Positions 44,143 to 58,375 of a stretch of 64,000 bases of DNA are shown one piece after another. Position 1 is the first letter of the stretch, and each line of letters begins with the position of its first letter. This DNA is from Nitrospirota bacterium (GTDB taxonomy: Bacteria; Nitrospirota; Nitrospiria; Nitrospirales; Nitrospiraceae), in contig JAPLLG010000008.1 of the NCBI GenBank assembly GCA_026387665.1, forward strand, positions 62,001 to 126,000, in the 5' to 3' direction. A model generated the notes under the pieces. The model saw only the letters and a list, made by a program, of their open reading frames with translations. It did no database searches and was not told where the DNA came from. The position numbers and the translations under genes are program-made.

Positions 44143-44217
44143 AACGTGAAACGTCGTTCGTGAAACGTGAAGCGTTTTGCGAGGGACGAGAGACGAACGA
44201 CGAGAGACGAGTACAGA
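44143..44217. repeat. degenerate CGTGAAA and ACGAGAGACGA repeats in the gltB-gltD gap
   Basis: Four copies of ACGTGAA-type units (44145-44180) followed by GACGAGAGACGAACGACGAG-type units up to the gltD start. Low-complexity short repeats of the same kind appear in other gaps in the window. Confidence 0.55.
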
Positions 44218-45654
44218 ATGGGTGATCCAAAAGGTTTCATGAAGTATGCCCGCGAGGGCCCCAAGCGGAAACCGGTCGAGCTGAGGGTGCTCGAGTGGAA
44301 GGAAATGTACGAGCCGCTGGCCGAGGACAAGCTCAAGGTCCAGGGTGCGCGCTGCATGGATTGCGGTGTGCCCTTCTGCCAGGGTACGACTGGCTGCCCG
44401 GTCGTGAATCTGATCCCCGAATGGAACGATCTGGTCTATCGCGGCCGCTGGAACGACGCGCTCAAGGCGCTCCATACGACGAATAACTTTCCCGAGTTTA
44501 CCGGCCGCCTCTGCCCGGCGCCCTGCGAAGGGGCTTGCGTGCTCGGCATCAACTCAGACCCGGTCTCCATCAGAATTCTCGAATGGAACATCATCGACCG
44601 TGGTTTCAATGAAGGCTTGGTCGAGCCGATCCTGCCTGTCACGAATACGGGGAAGACTGTCGCGATTGTCGGGTCAGGCCCGGCTGGTTTGGCCGCCGCG
44701 CAGCAGCTGGCCCGCGCCGGCCATCGTGTGACGGTGTTCGAGAAGTCCGACCGTATCGGCGGCCTGCTCCGCTACGGCATCCCTGACTTCAAGATGGAAA
44801 AATGGGTCATCGACCGGCGGCTGGACCAGATGAAGGCCGAAGGGGTGGAGTTCAAGACCGGTGTGACGATCGGGCAAGACATGACGGGCGAACAGTTGCG
44901 CCAGCAGTTCGATGCGGCCGGTCTCTCCATGGGCGCGGAGCAGGCTCGTGAATTGCCGATTCCAGGCCGCGAACTCAAGGGCGTGCATCTCGCGATGGAA
45001 TTCCTTGCGCAGCAGAACAAGCGCAATGCCGGAATCTCCATCACGAAGGAGCCGATCACGGCCAAGGGCAAGCGCGTCGTCATCATCGGCGGCGGCGACA
45101 CCGGGTCCGATTGCCTGGGAACGGCGCATCGGCAGGGTTGTGTCGACGCGCATCAGTTCGAATTGCTGCCGGAGCCGCCTCCGACCCGCGCCGATTCGAC
45201 GCCTTGGCCGCTCTGGCCCATGCAGCTCCGCACGTCGCATGCGCATGAAGAAGGCTGTGACCGTCAATGGAGTGTCTCGACCACCAAGTTCACCGGCCAC
45301 AATGGCCAGGTGACGAAGCTCCATGCCAATCGGGTGAAGTTCGAAGGCGGCAAGTTCACGCCGATCCCCGGTAGCGACTTCGAGCTGGATGTCGATCTGG
45401 TTCTGCTCGCGATGGGGTTTACCGGCCCAGTGAAGAACGGCCTGTTGGACAGCCTCGGGGTGAAGTACGACGCACGTGGCGCAGTGGCCGTGGACGATAA
45501 CTTCATGACCAGCCTCGACGGGATCTTTGCCAGCGGCGACACCAAGCGAGGCCCTTCGCTCATCGTCTGGGCCATCGCCGAAGGGCGTAAGATGGCGGCG
45601 GGCATCGATCAATACTTGCGCGCTGGACAATCCGCGAAGAAATCCGCTTCTTAG
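44218..45654 (+). CDS. gltD: glutamate synthase small subunit
   Basis: A 478-residue Fe-S flavoprotein that feeds electrons from NAD(P)H to GltB. N-terminal cluster cysteines are in ARCMDCGVPFCQG and LCPAPCEGACVLGI. The FAD site is AIVGSGPAGLAAAQQLARAG and the NAD(P)H site is VIIGGGDTGSDCLG. The ATG at 44218 begins MGDPKGFMKYAREGP, the usual start. The last 23 codons are repeated about 700 bases downstream, beyond a toxin-antitoxin-like pair. Confidence 0.95.
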   Translation: MGDPKGFMKYAREGPKRKPVELRVLEWKEMYEPLAEDKLKVQGARCMDCGVPFCQGTTGCPVVNLIPEWNDLVYRGRWNDALKALHTTNNFPEFTGRLCPAPCEGACVLGINSDPVSIRILEWNIIDRGFNEGLVEPILPVTNTGKTVAIVGSGPAGLAAAQQLARAGHRVTVFEKSDRIGGLLRYGIPDFKMEKWVIDRRLDQMKAEGVEFKTGVTIGQDMTGEQLRQQFDAAGLSMGAEQARELPIPGRELKGVHLAMEFLAQQNKRNAGISITKEPITAKGKRVVIIGGGDTGSDCLGTAHRQGCVDAHQFELLPEPPPTRADSTPWPLWPMQLRTSHAHEEGCDRQWSVSTTKFTGHNGQVTKLHANRVKFEGGKFTPIPGSDFELDVDLVLLAMGFTGPVKNGLLDSLGVKYDARGAVAVDDNFMTSLDGIFASGDTKRGPSLIVWAIAEGRKMAAGIDQYLRAGQSAKKSAS

Positions 45655-45705: not shown

Positions 45706-46023
45706 ATGGCAGCGAACATTCTAGAGCGAGTGCGAGCCGCAGGCCGAAAACGGCTGTTGTACCTTCCTCATGCAATTCGACAGATGTCTCGATCAGACAG
45801 GATGATCGCGCCGGAAGAAGTGCAAACGGTTGCCATTACCGGTCGATTAGTAGAAGATTATCCCGATGATCCTCGCGGCCATAGTTGCCTGCTTGTTGGC
45901 CCTGGAGATGGGGGTCGTCCGATTCATATCGTCGTGGCGCCGAAGGATGACTATCTCGCTGTCGTCACAGCCTATGTGCCTGATCCAACGCAATGGTCGC
46001 CGGATTTCTTGAGGAGGGCGTAA
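45706..46023 (+). CDS. DUF4258-type small protein, likely toxin partner
   Basis: A 105-residue protein with LYLPHAIRQMSRSDRMIAPE and VEDYPDDPRGHSCLLVG, followed by RPIHIVVAPKDDYLAVVTAY, which match DUF4258. This fold resembles RelE/BrnT-like small toxins. It is followed after three bases by a YgiT-type zinc-finger gene, an arrangement like MqsR-MqsA. The toxin role is inference from that pairing. Confidence 0.78.
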   Translation: MAANILERVRAAGRKRLLYLPHAIRQMSRSDRMIAPEEVQTVAITGRLVEDYPDDPRGHSCLLVGPGDGGRPIHIVVAPKDDYLAVVTAYVPDPTQWSPDFLRRA

Positions 46024-46026
46024 GCG

Positions 46027-46257
46027 ATGGAATGTCTCCATTGTAAGGGGCGGATGGAGCGGAAGACGGCTCCCTTCAGTTTGGATCGGAAGGGGTACCA
46101 TGTGTCCTGGGATGCCATCCCGGCGTGGGTGTGTCTGCAATGTGGCGAGCCATATTTTGAGGCCAAAGAAGTGGAGCTGATTCAGAAAGCGCTCACCGCG
46201 TTGGAGCGCGAAGGCGCAGCGCTAGTTGGCGCGGGGCCTCCAGCAGTGAAGTCGTAA
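46027..46257 (+). CDS. YgiT/MqsA-type zinc-finger protein, likely antitoxin partner
   Basis: A 76-residue protein with two CxxC pairs, MECLHCKGRME and WVCLQCGEPYFE, forming the YgiT-type zinc ribbon, and an amphipathic helix at the end. It lacks the HTH half of full MqsA, as many YgiT-type partners do. GGAGGG lies inside the end of the DUF4258 gene, nine bases before the start. Together with its neighbour it forms a mobile toxin-antitoxin-like pair inserted between gltD and a second gltD tail. Confidence 0.8.
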   Translation: MECLHCKGRMERKTAPFSLDRKGYHVSWDAIPAWVCLQCGEPYFEAKEVELIQKALTALEREGAALVGAGPPAVKS

Positions 46258-46264
46258 GTAGGGT

Positions 46265-46334
46265 CTCGTTCATCGTCTGGGCCACCGCCGAAGGGCGCAA
46301 GATGGCGGCGGGGATCGATCAGTATCTGCGCGCG
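46265..46334 (+). pseudogene. displaced extra copy of the gltD 3' end
   Basis: CATCGTCTGGGCC (46271 on) through GCGCGC aligns with the gltD end at about 45560-45622: 57 of 63 bases identical by hand alignment, without gaps. In the gltD frame it still reads IVWATAEGRKMAAGIDQYLR. Five of the six differences are synonymous, so the copy diverged while under selection as a working gltD, not after duplication. It marks a recombination border of the inserted toxin-antitoxin-like pair. Confidence 0.8.
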
Positions 46335-46449
46335 AACCGGTCAGTTATCCCGTTCAATTCTAGTAGATGCCATACCTCGTCGCTCCCTTGCCTCTCGGAG
46401 CGACCCTTCCGGACTCATCCGAACAGAAGTCTTCTGGAATTCCTTCGGC

Positions 46450-46574
46450 TGCGGTCATATGCGGGTCCTGTCACGGCGAACAGCCCCACCGTGCTCGCAC
46501 CCCGCCCGGTGTAGGGACCCCGCTCCGCGCGGTGGGGCGCCCAGTTCGCCGCGCCACCCGCATATGATCGCAGT
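46450..46574. repeat. 125-bp long palindrome
   Basis: CTGCGGTCATATGCGGGT (46450-46467) is the inverse of ACCCGCATATGATCGCAG (46557-46574) with one mismatch in 18. Inner arms CGGCGAACAGCCCCACCG and CGGTGGGGCGCCCAGTTCGC also pair, with a bulge. The whole could fold into one long hairpin. No coding signal. Its sequence is unrelated to the AGCAGGATGC family, though its length is similar. Confidence 0.75.
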
Positions 46575-46589
46575 GCTTCAGTCATTTCC

Positions 46590-46620
46590 AGCTTTCCTTC
46601 TCAGCCAAGCCTCGGTGGGA
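46590..46620 (+). repeat. left 31-bp inverted repeat around the broken gene
   Basis: CAGCTTTCCTTCTCAGCCAA followed by GCCTCGGTGGG is an exact inverse of 47792-47822. Weaker similarity extends about ten bases to each side. The two copies enclose about 1.2 kb. Confidence 0.85.
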
Positions 46621-46757
46621 CCCTGCTTCTTCGGCAAAGTCAGCGAGGAGCCCTGGCGCGCGTGAGCATTTGTCCTCCTCGTCTGGTTGACACAATGTCG
46701 TGTGAAAAGTACGCTGTCTCCATTTCCGGTCCTGTTCTTTATTATGGGGCGTACTGA

Positions 46758-47515
46758 GTGCAACTCACCAGAGAGCAGCGTGAGCAGCTTGTCTTTAAGA
46801 GCTTTGCGGAGACGTGTGGTCTTCTCCCATGTGGAACCTTCAGTAGCAGGCCCATTCCCGAGCCAGATATCCTCTTCATTCCAGATAATGGCTCTCCTCA
46901 AGCATTTGAGCTTGTCGAGATCATCGATAACGACTTTTCCCGCTCAATCGGAGCCCAGCTAAGTACCAAGAACGCCTGCCAAGAGCATCTCGATGTTCTT
47001 CCGGATGATCAGGCCGCCGCTTTCCGGGGGCTCTACTCCGATGCGGACATTTCATCGGCTTCCGGGATTCCCTGACCCTGCGGCAACGAAAGAATTCACT
47101 AGCTCAAGTGTTTGAACAACTAATGGGACTGCCTGCTGGGTTTGTTGGCGAAGTATTTGCTGATGGAGGACCACTTTATGATGTCATAGATCGCATCGCG
47201 ATCTATCGGGGACAGTTCATCGGACCACTCTTTGACGTCCCGTCAGTCGTGAGAGTTGGTGATCCAACCGTAAATGCGATTGCTAGCAAGATGGCGAAGG
47301 TGTATCAGCCGAAGGGAACACTGAGCTTGCTGGCCTACATTGCTATGAACCCAATGTTTCCCGATGAAATCTGGCTCTCGGACCTTGACGAATATTTACT
47401 AACTCTCAACTTAGACTGCCAGTTTCAAAATATCTATATCTATGACGGTAGGTCGAAAAGCGTCAAGCGTACTTGGCATCGAGAGAACAAGAAAATGAAC
47501 GGGGATTCTTTTTGA
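46758..47515 (+). pseudogene. unknown gene broken by a one-base frameshift
   Basis: Two open stretches join if one base is added in the ATTTC run near 47050. The first (GTG at 46758) reads QLTREQREQLVFKSFAETCG and continues to GLYSDADI before running to a false stop. The second then continues as FIGFRDSLTLRQRKNSLAQV and FEQLMGLPAGFVGEVFADGG to WHRENKKMNG at the end. The restored product would be about 250 residues. I do not recognise it. The DNA is more AT-rich than its surroundings. A sequencing error in the T-run would also explain the break. It lies between 31-bp inverted repeats. Confidence 0.65.
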
Positions 47516-47791
47516 TAAAAAGAACAATACTCCCTTCGGTCGAGCCCGTTCGGACGTTCTGGTTACGGACAGGGTTTCTGTCGGGGATAGGATTAAATGC
47601 AAAGTGTGGGGTCGCTGCTTAACTTTGCAGCTTGTTGAGCAGCGAAAACAAAGTAACCAGGCTTCTGTATCTCTCGTGGAGACAGGAAAATGTACTGGGA
47701 GTCTTTTCTAACCTAATTCGCTTTCTCTGCCTATCGACATCTACTCTGAGCGCTGGCATGCTGCCGCGCGACCCCACTGGAAGAACTGGGA
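47516..47791. other. non-coding remnant inside the inverted repeats
   Basis: No convincing gene. CTGCTTAACTTTGCAGC (47611-47627) and nearby GAGCAGCG could form short hairpins. The sequence is AT-richer than the chromosome around it and may be debris of the inserted unit. Confidence 0.3.
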
Positions 47792-47822
47792 CCCACCGAG
47801 GCTTGGCTGAGAAGGAAAGCTG
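47792..47822 (-). repeat. right 31-bp inverted repeat
   Basis: Exact inverse of 46590-46620. Downstream, 47856-47880 holds TTTCACGTTTCACGAG, a unit of the CGTGAAA repeat type, before the PilZ gene end. Confidence 0.85.
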
Positions 47823-47903
47823 AAACTGACTTCGGCTCGCGCCTTTCCCTCATACCTCGCGTTTCACGTTTCACGAGATACGGGCGTTTCGCCGTGGGAA
47901 GGA

Positions 47904-48266
47904 TTACGCGCTGATGGCGGTTAACGTCGAGGTTGCGTAGTCAGGCTGGGCCGGCATGTCCGCCGGTGGCACGATCCCGACAAGATCTGTGACTCGTTCG
48001 CGGTCGCCTTGACTGTACCGAATAAATTCTATTCCAACATGGCCGTCCTTGGACCAGCGAACCACCGAGACTTCTACTGCCAGAGGAGTCCGCTCCTGAG
48101 CTACGGCAATCTGTAGCGCGAGATAGGTCCCCGTGTTCAACGCGACATCGCTGCGCATCTTGCAACCAGTTGGGGAGAGGTCGAGCACGACCCCTTCTCC
48201 GGCGCCGGTATCGCTTTGGATGCTGGCAGAGTAGCCGACGGGAACTCGAAGACATCGTGGTTGCAT
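47904..48266 (-). CDS. PilZ-domain protein
   Basis: A 120-residue single-domain protein. MQPRCLRVPVGYSAS starts the domain with an Arg-rich segment, VVLDLSPTGCKMRSD is the D/NxSxxG motif, and GHVGIEFIRY ends it. PilZ domains bind cyclic di-GMP through RxxxR and (D/N)xSxxG; here the first motif appears as R..R spaced differently, so binding is not certain. The ATG at 48266 follows AGGAGA. Possible roles are pilus, motility or exopolysaccharide control. Confidence 0.78.
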   Translation of the reverse strand: MQPRCLRVPVGYSASIQSDTGAGEGVVLDLSPTGCKMRSDVALNTGTYLALQIAVAQERTPLAVEVSVVRWSKDGHVGIEFIRYSQGDRERVTDLVGIVPPADMPAQPDYATSTLTAISA

Positions 48267-48326
48267 TGTCAGGTCTCCTGTGATTGGCACTAAGGGTGTA
48301 TCGGTAGATATGTGGGAAACTTAACT

Positions 48327-48514: not shown

Positions 48515-48643
48515 ACAGGATGCTCAAAAAGGCCGTCCAGCAAGGCCGCAGCGAGTGAAGCACCGAGGCGTACCCTTTAGGATACGTTGAGGGACTGAAC
48601 GATGCGAGAGCGACGCTGGCGGACTTTTTCAGCATTCTGCTAG
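48515..48643. repeat. about 125-bp palindromic repeat
   Basis: ACAGGATGCTCAAAAAGGCC at the left, GCGTACCCTTTAGGATACGT in the centre and GACTTTTTCAGCATTCTGCT at the right. Its right end holds, on the minus strand, the TAG stop codon of the gene at 48640-49092. Confidence 0.88.
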
Positions 48644-57457: not shown

Positions 57458-58375
57458 ATGCTGTTGGACCCGCTGGCCGAGCGATATTTGCGCCATCTCC
57501 GAGTGGAGGGCGGTCTTGCCGTCAACACGGTCGAGGCCTATCGGCGGGACCTGAGTAAATTCCATGCCTATGTGCAGCGAGCCGGCTCCGTACCGCCCGA
57601 ACAGGTCACAGCGGAAACGGTAACGGGATTTCTCCGCTCCTTACATGAGGCCAAACTGTCTCGCGCCTCCTCGGTTCGCTGTCTCTCGGCGATTCGTGGG
57701 TGGTTCCGGTTTTTATTGCAGGAACGGATGATCGAAGAGAGTCCCGTCGTCGGGCTGCCTTCGATGGCGAAAGGCGTTCGGCTGCCTAAAACGCTGCCGC
57801 AGCACGATGTGACCGCCCTATTGGATCTGGCGGCGGTTCCCACCCTTGAAGACTTGCGCGACCGCGCCATGGTGGAATTGCTCTATGCGACGGGGCTGCG
57901 TGTCTCGGAGCTGGTGACGGCTGAGGTCTCGCAGGTGAATCTCGAGGTCGGCTATCTCCGGGTCACAGGCAAGGGGTCGAAGCAGCGTCTCGTGCCGATG
58001 GGTGAGGGGGCGCGGCAGTTGCTACATCAGTATGTAGAAGAGGCGCGGCCCCGGCTCCTGAAGCAACGGGCCTCCCGGTATCTGTTCGTGTCGCGGCGGG
58101 GCGGCCCGTTGACGAGGCAAGCGTTCTGGAAGCTACTGCGGCGCCGCGCGCAGCGAGCGGGCATTACGCAGATCATTTCGCCTCACATGCTCCGCCATTC
58201 GTTTGCCACACATCTGCTCGAAGGCGGCGCAGATTTGCGGTCTGTTCAGGTGATGCTGGGCCATGCCAATATTGTGACGACGCAGATTTATACTCATGTT
58301 GAGCGGGGACGGTTGAAGCGGGTTCATGACGCCTATTTCCCCAGGGCGGGCCGGAGCCGCGGGAAAAAATCCTAA
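57458..58375 (+). CDS. xerD: tyrosine recombinase XerC/XerD
   Basis: A 305-residue site-specific recombinase for chromosome dimer resolution. The SAM-like N-terminal domain includes GGLAVNTVEAYRRDLSKF. Catalytic residues: Arg in LLYATGLRVSELV, Lys in VTGKGSKQRLVPMG, His-x-x-Arg in SPHMLRHSFATHLLEGG, His in LGHANIVTTQIYTHV, whose Tyr is the nucleophile. The SPHxLRH and GGADLR stretches favour XerD over XerC. The ATG at 57458 is chosen over an in-frame TTG at 57440. Confidence 0.9.
   Translation: MLLDPLAERYLRHLRVEGGLAVNTVEAYRRDLSKFHAYVQRAGSVPPEQVTAETVTGFLRSLHEAKLSRASSVRCLSAIRGWFRFLLQERMIEESPVVGLPSMAKGVRLPKTLPQHDVTALLDLAAVPTLEDLRDRAMVELLYATGLRVSELVTAEVSQVNLEVGYLRVTGKGSKQRLVPMGEGARQLLHQYVEEARPRLLKQRASRYLFVSRRGGPLTRQAFWKLLRRRAQRAGITQIISPHMLRHSFATHLLEGGADLRSVQVMLGHANIVTTQIYTHVERGRLKRVHDAYFPRAGRSRGKKS

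Follow-up and report, generated by a model that had tools for sequence, protein, structure and literature searches.

In the 64,000-nucleotide stretch of Nitrospirota DNA analyzed here (referred to as the window), a 1.2-kb unit lies between gltD and a PilZ-domain gene, and its two ends, 46590–46620 and 47792–47822, are exact 31-bp inverted copies of each other. By our own estimate, the chance of finding such an exact inverted match about 1.2 kb apart in 64 kb is about 1e-11. The first-pass annotation had reported these ends together with weaker similarity beyond them, and both observations hold: Each arm extends to 44 nt (46580–46623 and 47788–47831) at 93% complementarity. It had further described a frameshifted passenger gene and AT-rich debris between the ends, and had read the whole as a non-autonomous transposon or as a unit inverted or inserted by a recombinase acting in trans. 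The locus comprises the following features, in which G numbers designate relatives, intI is the gene of the integron integrase, and attI and attC are the sites on which this integrase acts:

44167–45654, forward strand: gltD (glutamate synthase small subunit), the conserved left neighbor (Pfam Fer4_20, Pyr_redox_2)
45706–46257, forward strand: toxin–antitoxin-like pair (a DUF4258 protein and a YgiT/MqsA-type zinc-finger protein; Pfam, NCBIfam)
46266–46333, forward strand: second copy of the gltD 3′ end, 90% identical (repeat search)
~46370–46662, forward strand: left border hairpin, a complete unit with a nested insertion, containing the left arm (alignment, fold)
46463–46565, no strand: nested 103-bp hairpin in the loop of the left hairpin, with the ends CATATGCGGGT / ACCCGCATATG (repeat search)
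46590–46620, forward strand: left exact 31-bp arm, the inner arm of the left hairpin (repeat search)
46758–47515, forward strand: passenger pseudogene, near full-length (open reading frames 46758–47075 and 47108–47515; relatives of 247–264 amino acids, uncharacterized)
47600–47680, forward strand: 81-bp segment; in G011 and G017, DNA 88–91% identical to it directly precedes intI 3′ fragments
47680–47747, reverse strand: “tail” spacer, which in relatives bridges the array end and the right hairpin (preC, tail, and hairpin are contiguous in G016)
47748–47831, reverse strand: right border hairpin, arm-bearing half only (comparison with relatives)
47792–47822, reverse strand: right exact 31-bp arm, the inner arm of the right hairpin (repeat search)
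47829–47832, no strand: junction at which the hairpin breaks off at its center and chromosomal flank begins again (ACTTCGG-TCGCGCCTTTC...; identified against G031 and G007)
47904–48290, reverse strand: PilZ-domain gene, the conserved right neighbor (Pfam; conserved in the genus)

Each arm lies inside a larger hairpin, and the one on the left continues for about 210 bp beyond the proposed unit. Many short matches turned up in 60 relatives, mostly from the same Nitrospira-like genus (32 genomes searched), and once aligned they form an imperfect palindrome of about 200 bp. Full hairpin copies, folded with some flank, reach about −81 to −135 kcal/mol, and RNAalifold predicts 66 pairs, 33 of which carry at least one compensatory change. 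The genome-wide search for the 31-bp end that the first-pass annotation had proposed finds the strong arm at just two sites, both at this unit, while a covariance model of the inner part of the hairpin detects three further, diverged copies elsewhere in the same genome and 1 to 15 copies in each of the 32 genus genomes. In a collection with one genome per species, exact matches to a 20-mer from the inner arm come mostly from Nitrospira records. Rfam has no match in the region; the hairpin model, run on the window with default filters, has none there either, probably because of the 103-bp insert in the left copy and because only half of the right one is present. Repetitive extragenic palindromic elements measure 20–40 nt and are unlike this single hairpin of about 200 nt. 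That the border repeats are themselves attC sites was ruled out: The hairpins lie outside the R′ site of attC, and attC sites adjoin them in relatives.

The arms are locus-specific variants of this family, and the two belong to different gltD-locus variants, with outer stems of the GGTGTGCCA type in one case versus AGCGCTGGCATGC in the other. The left hairpin of the window matches the left hairpins behind gltD in G004, G013, G019, G020, G023, G026, and G030, and the window's outer right arm occurs nearly only in contigs of this locus; the presence of gltD in two further records is unchecked. The nested hairpin, which is unrelated to the border hairpin, recurs at 99% identity behind gltD in G013 and G026 and is confined to gltD-bearing contigs among the relatives searched.

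When 36 stretches of the locus are oriented alike, they follow the order gltD, forward hairpin, variable DNA, reversed hairpin, PilZ. The 3′ half of gltD is matched in 30 of the 32 genus genomes (two of these by short, weak matches) and the PilZ-side DNA in all or nearly all of them. Six relatives carry both hairpins on one contig, the left forward and the right reversed (G004, G006, G013, G019, G022, G023); besides its pair, G019 has an extra hairpin fragment in the opposite orientation. At this same chromosomal place relatives carry integrons in several states: complete with intI, as attI and one or few attC cassettes without intI, or as intI fragments. Intact IntI is encoded at the locus in G016 and G019 (463 and 464 bits; family cut-off 265), in both cases in “reverse” orientation, that is, reading toward attI and the cassettes. 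These two loci, L140 and L121, are complete reverse-orientation integrons in Nitrospira, whose cargo we take to be VOC-like, BrnT/BrnA-like, and others. About a dozen relatives have attI leaders or intI–attI junctions at the locus; in G011 and G017 only the 3′ end of intI is left. Canonical attC sites (RYYYAAC...GTTRRRY) are directly readable in relatives, and an attC model, built after the first pattern scans had proved too strict or too loose, yields 50–70 bits (E 4e-13 to 1e-8) in G005, G012, G013, G016, G017, G019, and G030, several of which are model seeds. In relatives a conserved GTTAAACCCGCAAATGTGTACG stretch closes the last attC and is followed by the right hairpin. The recombinase of the locus in relatives is the integron integrase, acting on attI and attC and not on the arms. 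In G006, G013, G022, and G023 the arms enclose about 1.0–1.4 kb, a length similar to that of the window's unit; an attI leader is present in this DNA, as is an attC-type site (read by eye in G006). Neither hairpins nor an integron are present at the gltD–PilZ locus of G002, G007, and G031.

On the right side of the unit, the supposed AT-rich debris is debris only in part, as 47600–47680 and 47680–47747 are recognizable conserved pieces of the locus in relatives. The tail spacer occurs at this locus only, in G004, G008, G016, G018, G019, and G030, and as a 27-bp piece in G026. Full or nearly full right hairpins stand at the same place in G004, G005, G013, G017, G023, G028, and G030. The right hairpin of the window ends at its center beside a known flank: It passes into flank of the G031/G007 type at ~47830, so that the other half-hairpin as well as the DUF5069 gene and the small secreted-protein gene, both of which lie here in relatives, are missing. 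Within the unit, the two passenger frames align in order to one family of about 250-amino-acid proteins (45% identity in G148, 36% in G076), which bears out the frameshift noted earlier and points to a single one, between about 47030 and 47110, in a gene that is otherwise close to complete; an assembly error could also account for it. Pfam, NCBIfam, and PADLOC hold no family for this protein, and no plasmid or viral relative was found.

We read the 1.2-kb unit as the decayed remnant of a hairpin-bracketed chromosomal integron site, with a probability of roughly two in three. In this genus, the interval from gltD to DUF5069/PilZ is bracketed by two ~200-bp hairpins in convergent orientation and is filled in relatives either by a reverse-orientation integron or by an intI-less version with attI and one or few attC cassettes. 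An ancestor of the window genome would have carried an integron at the gltD site and since have lost its integrase, its attI, and every attC site. The missing right flank was probably lost by deletion, which, starting at the center of the right hairpin, would have entered the flank on the PilZ side and taken the other half-hairpin and the adjoining genes with it. Left today are the border hairpins, whose inner arms stand out as exact terminal inverted repeats, and between them a frameshifted accessory gene, probably former cargo of the site.

Several observations weigh against this reading. The window's own genome has no match to the integron integrase above the cut-off, only weaker Xer-type recombinase matches; an attI leader is absent from the window; and the best attC score in the window is 11.3 bits, on a 24-nt hairpin, versus the 50–70 bits obtained in relatives. 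The 81-bp piece has by itself no IntI match, and the relatives of the passenger do not lie near hairpins or attI leaders. The compared genomes are mostly fragmented metagenome assemblies, independent loci are few, and G013 has two gltD copies. At a second site, between ychF and rpsF, the same convergent hairpins enclose other, non-integron DNA in G004, G026, and G019 (L235, L236, L248), so bracketing alone is no proof of an integron. The window likewise contains no cluster of attC sites lacking an integrase (CALIN; at least two attC sites). As it lacks every defining feature of an integron or a CALIN that was tested, it can only be named a remnant of the site.

These absences would also suit a variable site that was bracketed by hairpins and never held an integron in this lineage, its gene having been swapped between general borders as at ychF–rpsF. 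G026:C2, where such a pair encloses 1.3 kb of cargo, is of the same kind; at ychF–rpsF itself, other genomes have one hairpin or none, and in the window's own genome ychF is missing, as are hairpins at that site. We nevertheless consider a site without integron history unlikely, given that the window retains both the tail spacer, which in relatives connects the hairpin with the end of the array, and the 81-bp segment, whose counterparts in G011 and G017 adjoin intI fragments. Much less probable still is that an ordinary dispersed hairpin landed twice near gltD as a chance neighbor of DNA to which it bears no relation. The first-pass annotation had named this as the outcome that would speak against a connection, and the hairpin is indeed dispersed, with one to fifteen copies per genus genome; at gltD, however, it brackets the enclosed DNA across species, the same pair recurring with the same orientation and the same locus-specific variants in at least six other genomes.

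A miniature inverted-repeat transposable element, with terminal inverted repeats of 31–44 bp around a passenger and a transposase supplied in trans, would account for the exact inverted ends, the enclosed cargo, and the lack of a transposase inside the unit, where we too found none. Yet the flanking target duplications that had been proposed as a check were not seen, inspection revealing no direct repeat at 46580/47831; the unit has no second copy in its own genome and no whole copy in the 60 relatives; and its ends sit within larger hairpins, of which the left runs well beyond the unit, and represent different variants with different outer stems. With no target duplication, no other copy, and arms that lie inside larger repeats, the transposon reading is disfavored, and we regard it as quite improbable. 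Of the earlier proposal, a mobile-DNA structure without its recombinase stands, whereas the arms do not mark the termini of a single transposable unit. No related transposon ends were found, although ends linked to a transposase were not searched for systematically. The idea of a composite transposon was checked at two other hairpin-pair loci, where the blocks differ between species and edges and target duplications are not readable.

More speculatively, the conserved ~200-bp hairpin of Nitrospira might serve as a paired, direction-fixed border of exchangeable slots, with the same arm always facing the cargo. The gltD integron and the ychF–rpsF cargo would then be two fillings of such slots, and the hairpin structure might guide DNA exchange or protect the slot; we hold this to be doubtful. 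Among the matches listed, close hairpin pairs outside gltD are convergent at G026:C2, G026:C22 (two), G004:C18, and G005:C77, three are direct, and none is divergent; these orientations were read by eye, the numbers are small, and some of the loci are related by descent.

With regard to the neighboring DNA, the DUF4258/MqsA-like pair also adjoins gltD in G025, G030, and G012, and a duplicate gltD 3′ end of like kind is found in G013, G016, G019, G023, G025, and G030. The segment 45655–46333, in which the pair lies between gltD and the 3′-end duplicate, has its counterpart in G025 and G030, where pair and duplicate occur likewise. Beyond the PilZ-domain gene, 48516–48642 is a repeat of ~127 bp with very many copies in the genus (about 85–95% identical) and numerous copies also in the window's own genome. 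A gene for a Xer-type tyrosine recombinase at 57512–58306 is probably the chromosomal XerC or XerD.

Among known systems, MITE-bounded composite elements (TIME-COMPs and integron mobilization units) are alike in that two short inverted-repeat elements bracket a cargo that may include integron parts (PMC13367494); they differ from the window's unit, which has no target-site duplication, is chromosomal and fixed to one locus rather than plasmid-borne, and has a constant border orientation. A published survey reports only two CALIN elements for Nitrospira, both in Ca. Nitrospira inopinata, and no complete integron (PMC9024848). The integrase-less integron descendants at the present locus in G013, G006, G022, and G005 are comparable to these CALINs, whereas G016 and G019, with intI and attC sites, have no equivalent in that survey. 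Since the window has no attC site, it would be one step further decayed than a CALIN. The reverse chromosomal integrons of Treponema were likewise gained and lost within one genus, leaving remnants in some species, and the mechanism of their insertion and deletion was called unknown (PMC3607928). They belong to a different phylum, and the Nitrospira site, unlike theirs, is bracketed by inverted hairpin repeats; the remnant in T. phagedenis keeps attC sites, whereas the window keeps none. Here a single fixed locus of one genus presents complete reverse integrons, intI-less platforms, what is probably a stripped remnant, and sites that are empty; wherever borders exist at gltD, they are the same inverted hairpins. 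With this range of states at one locus, the sequence of losses can be tested directly, as can any role that the borders may have. In its working, the ancestor of the site would resemble the Treponema reverse chromosomal integrons.
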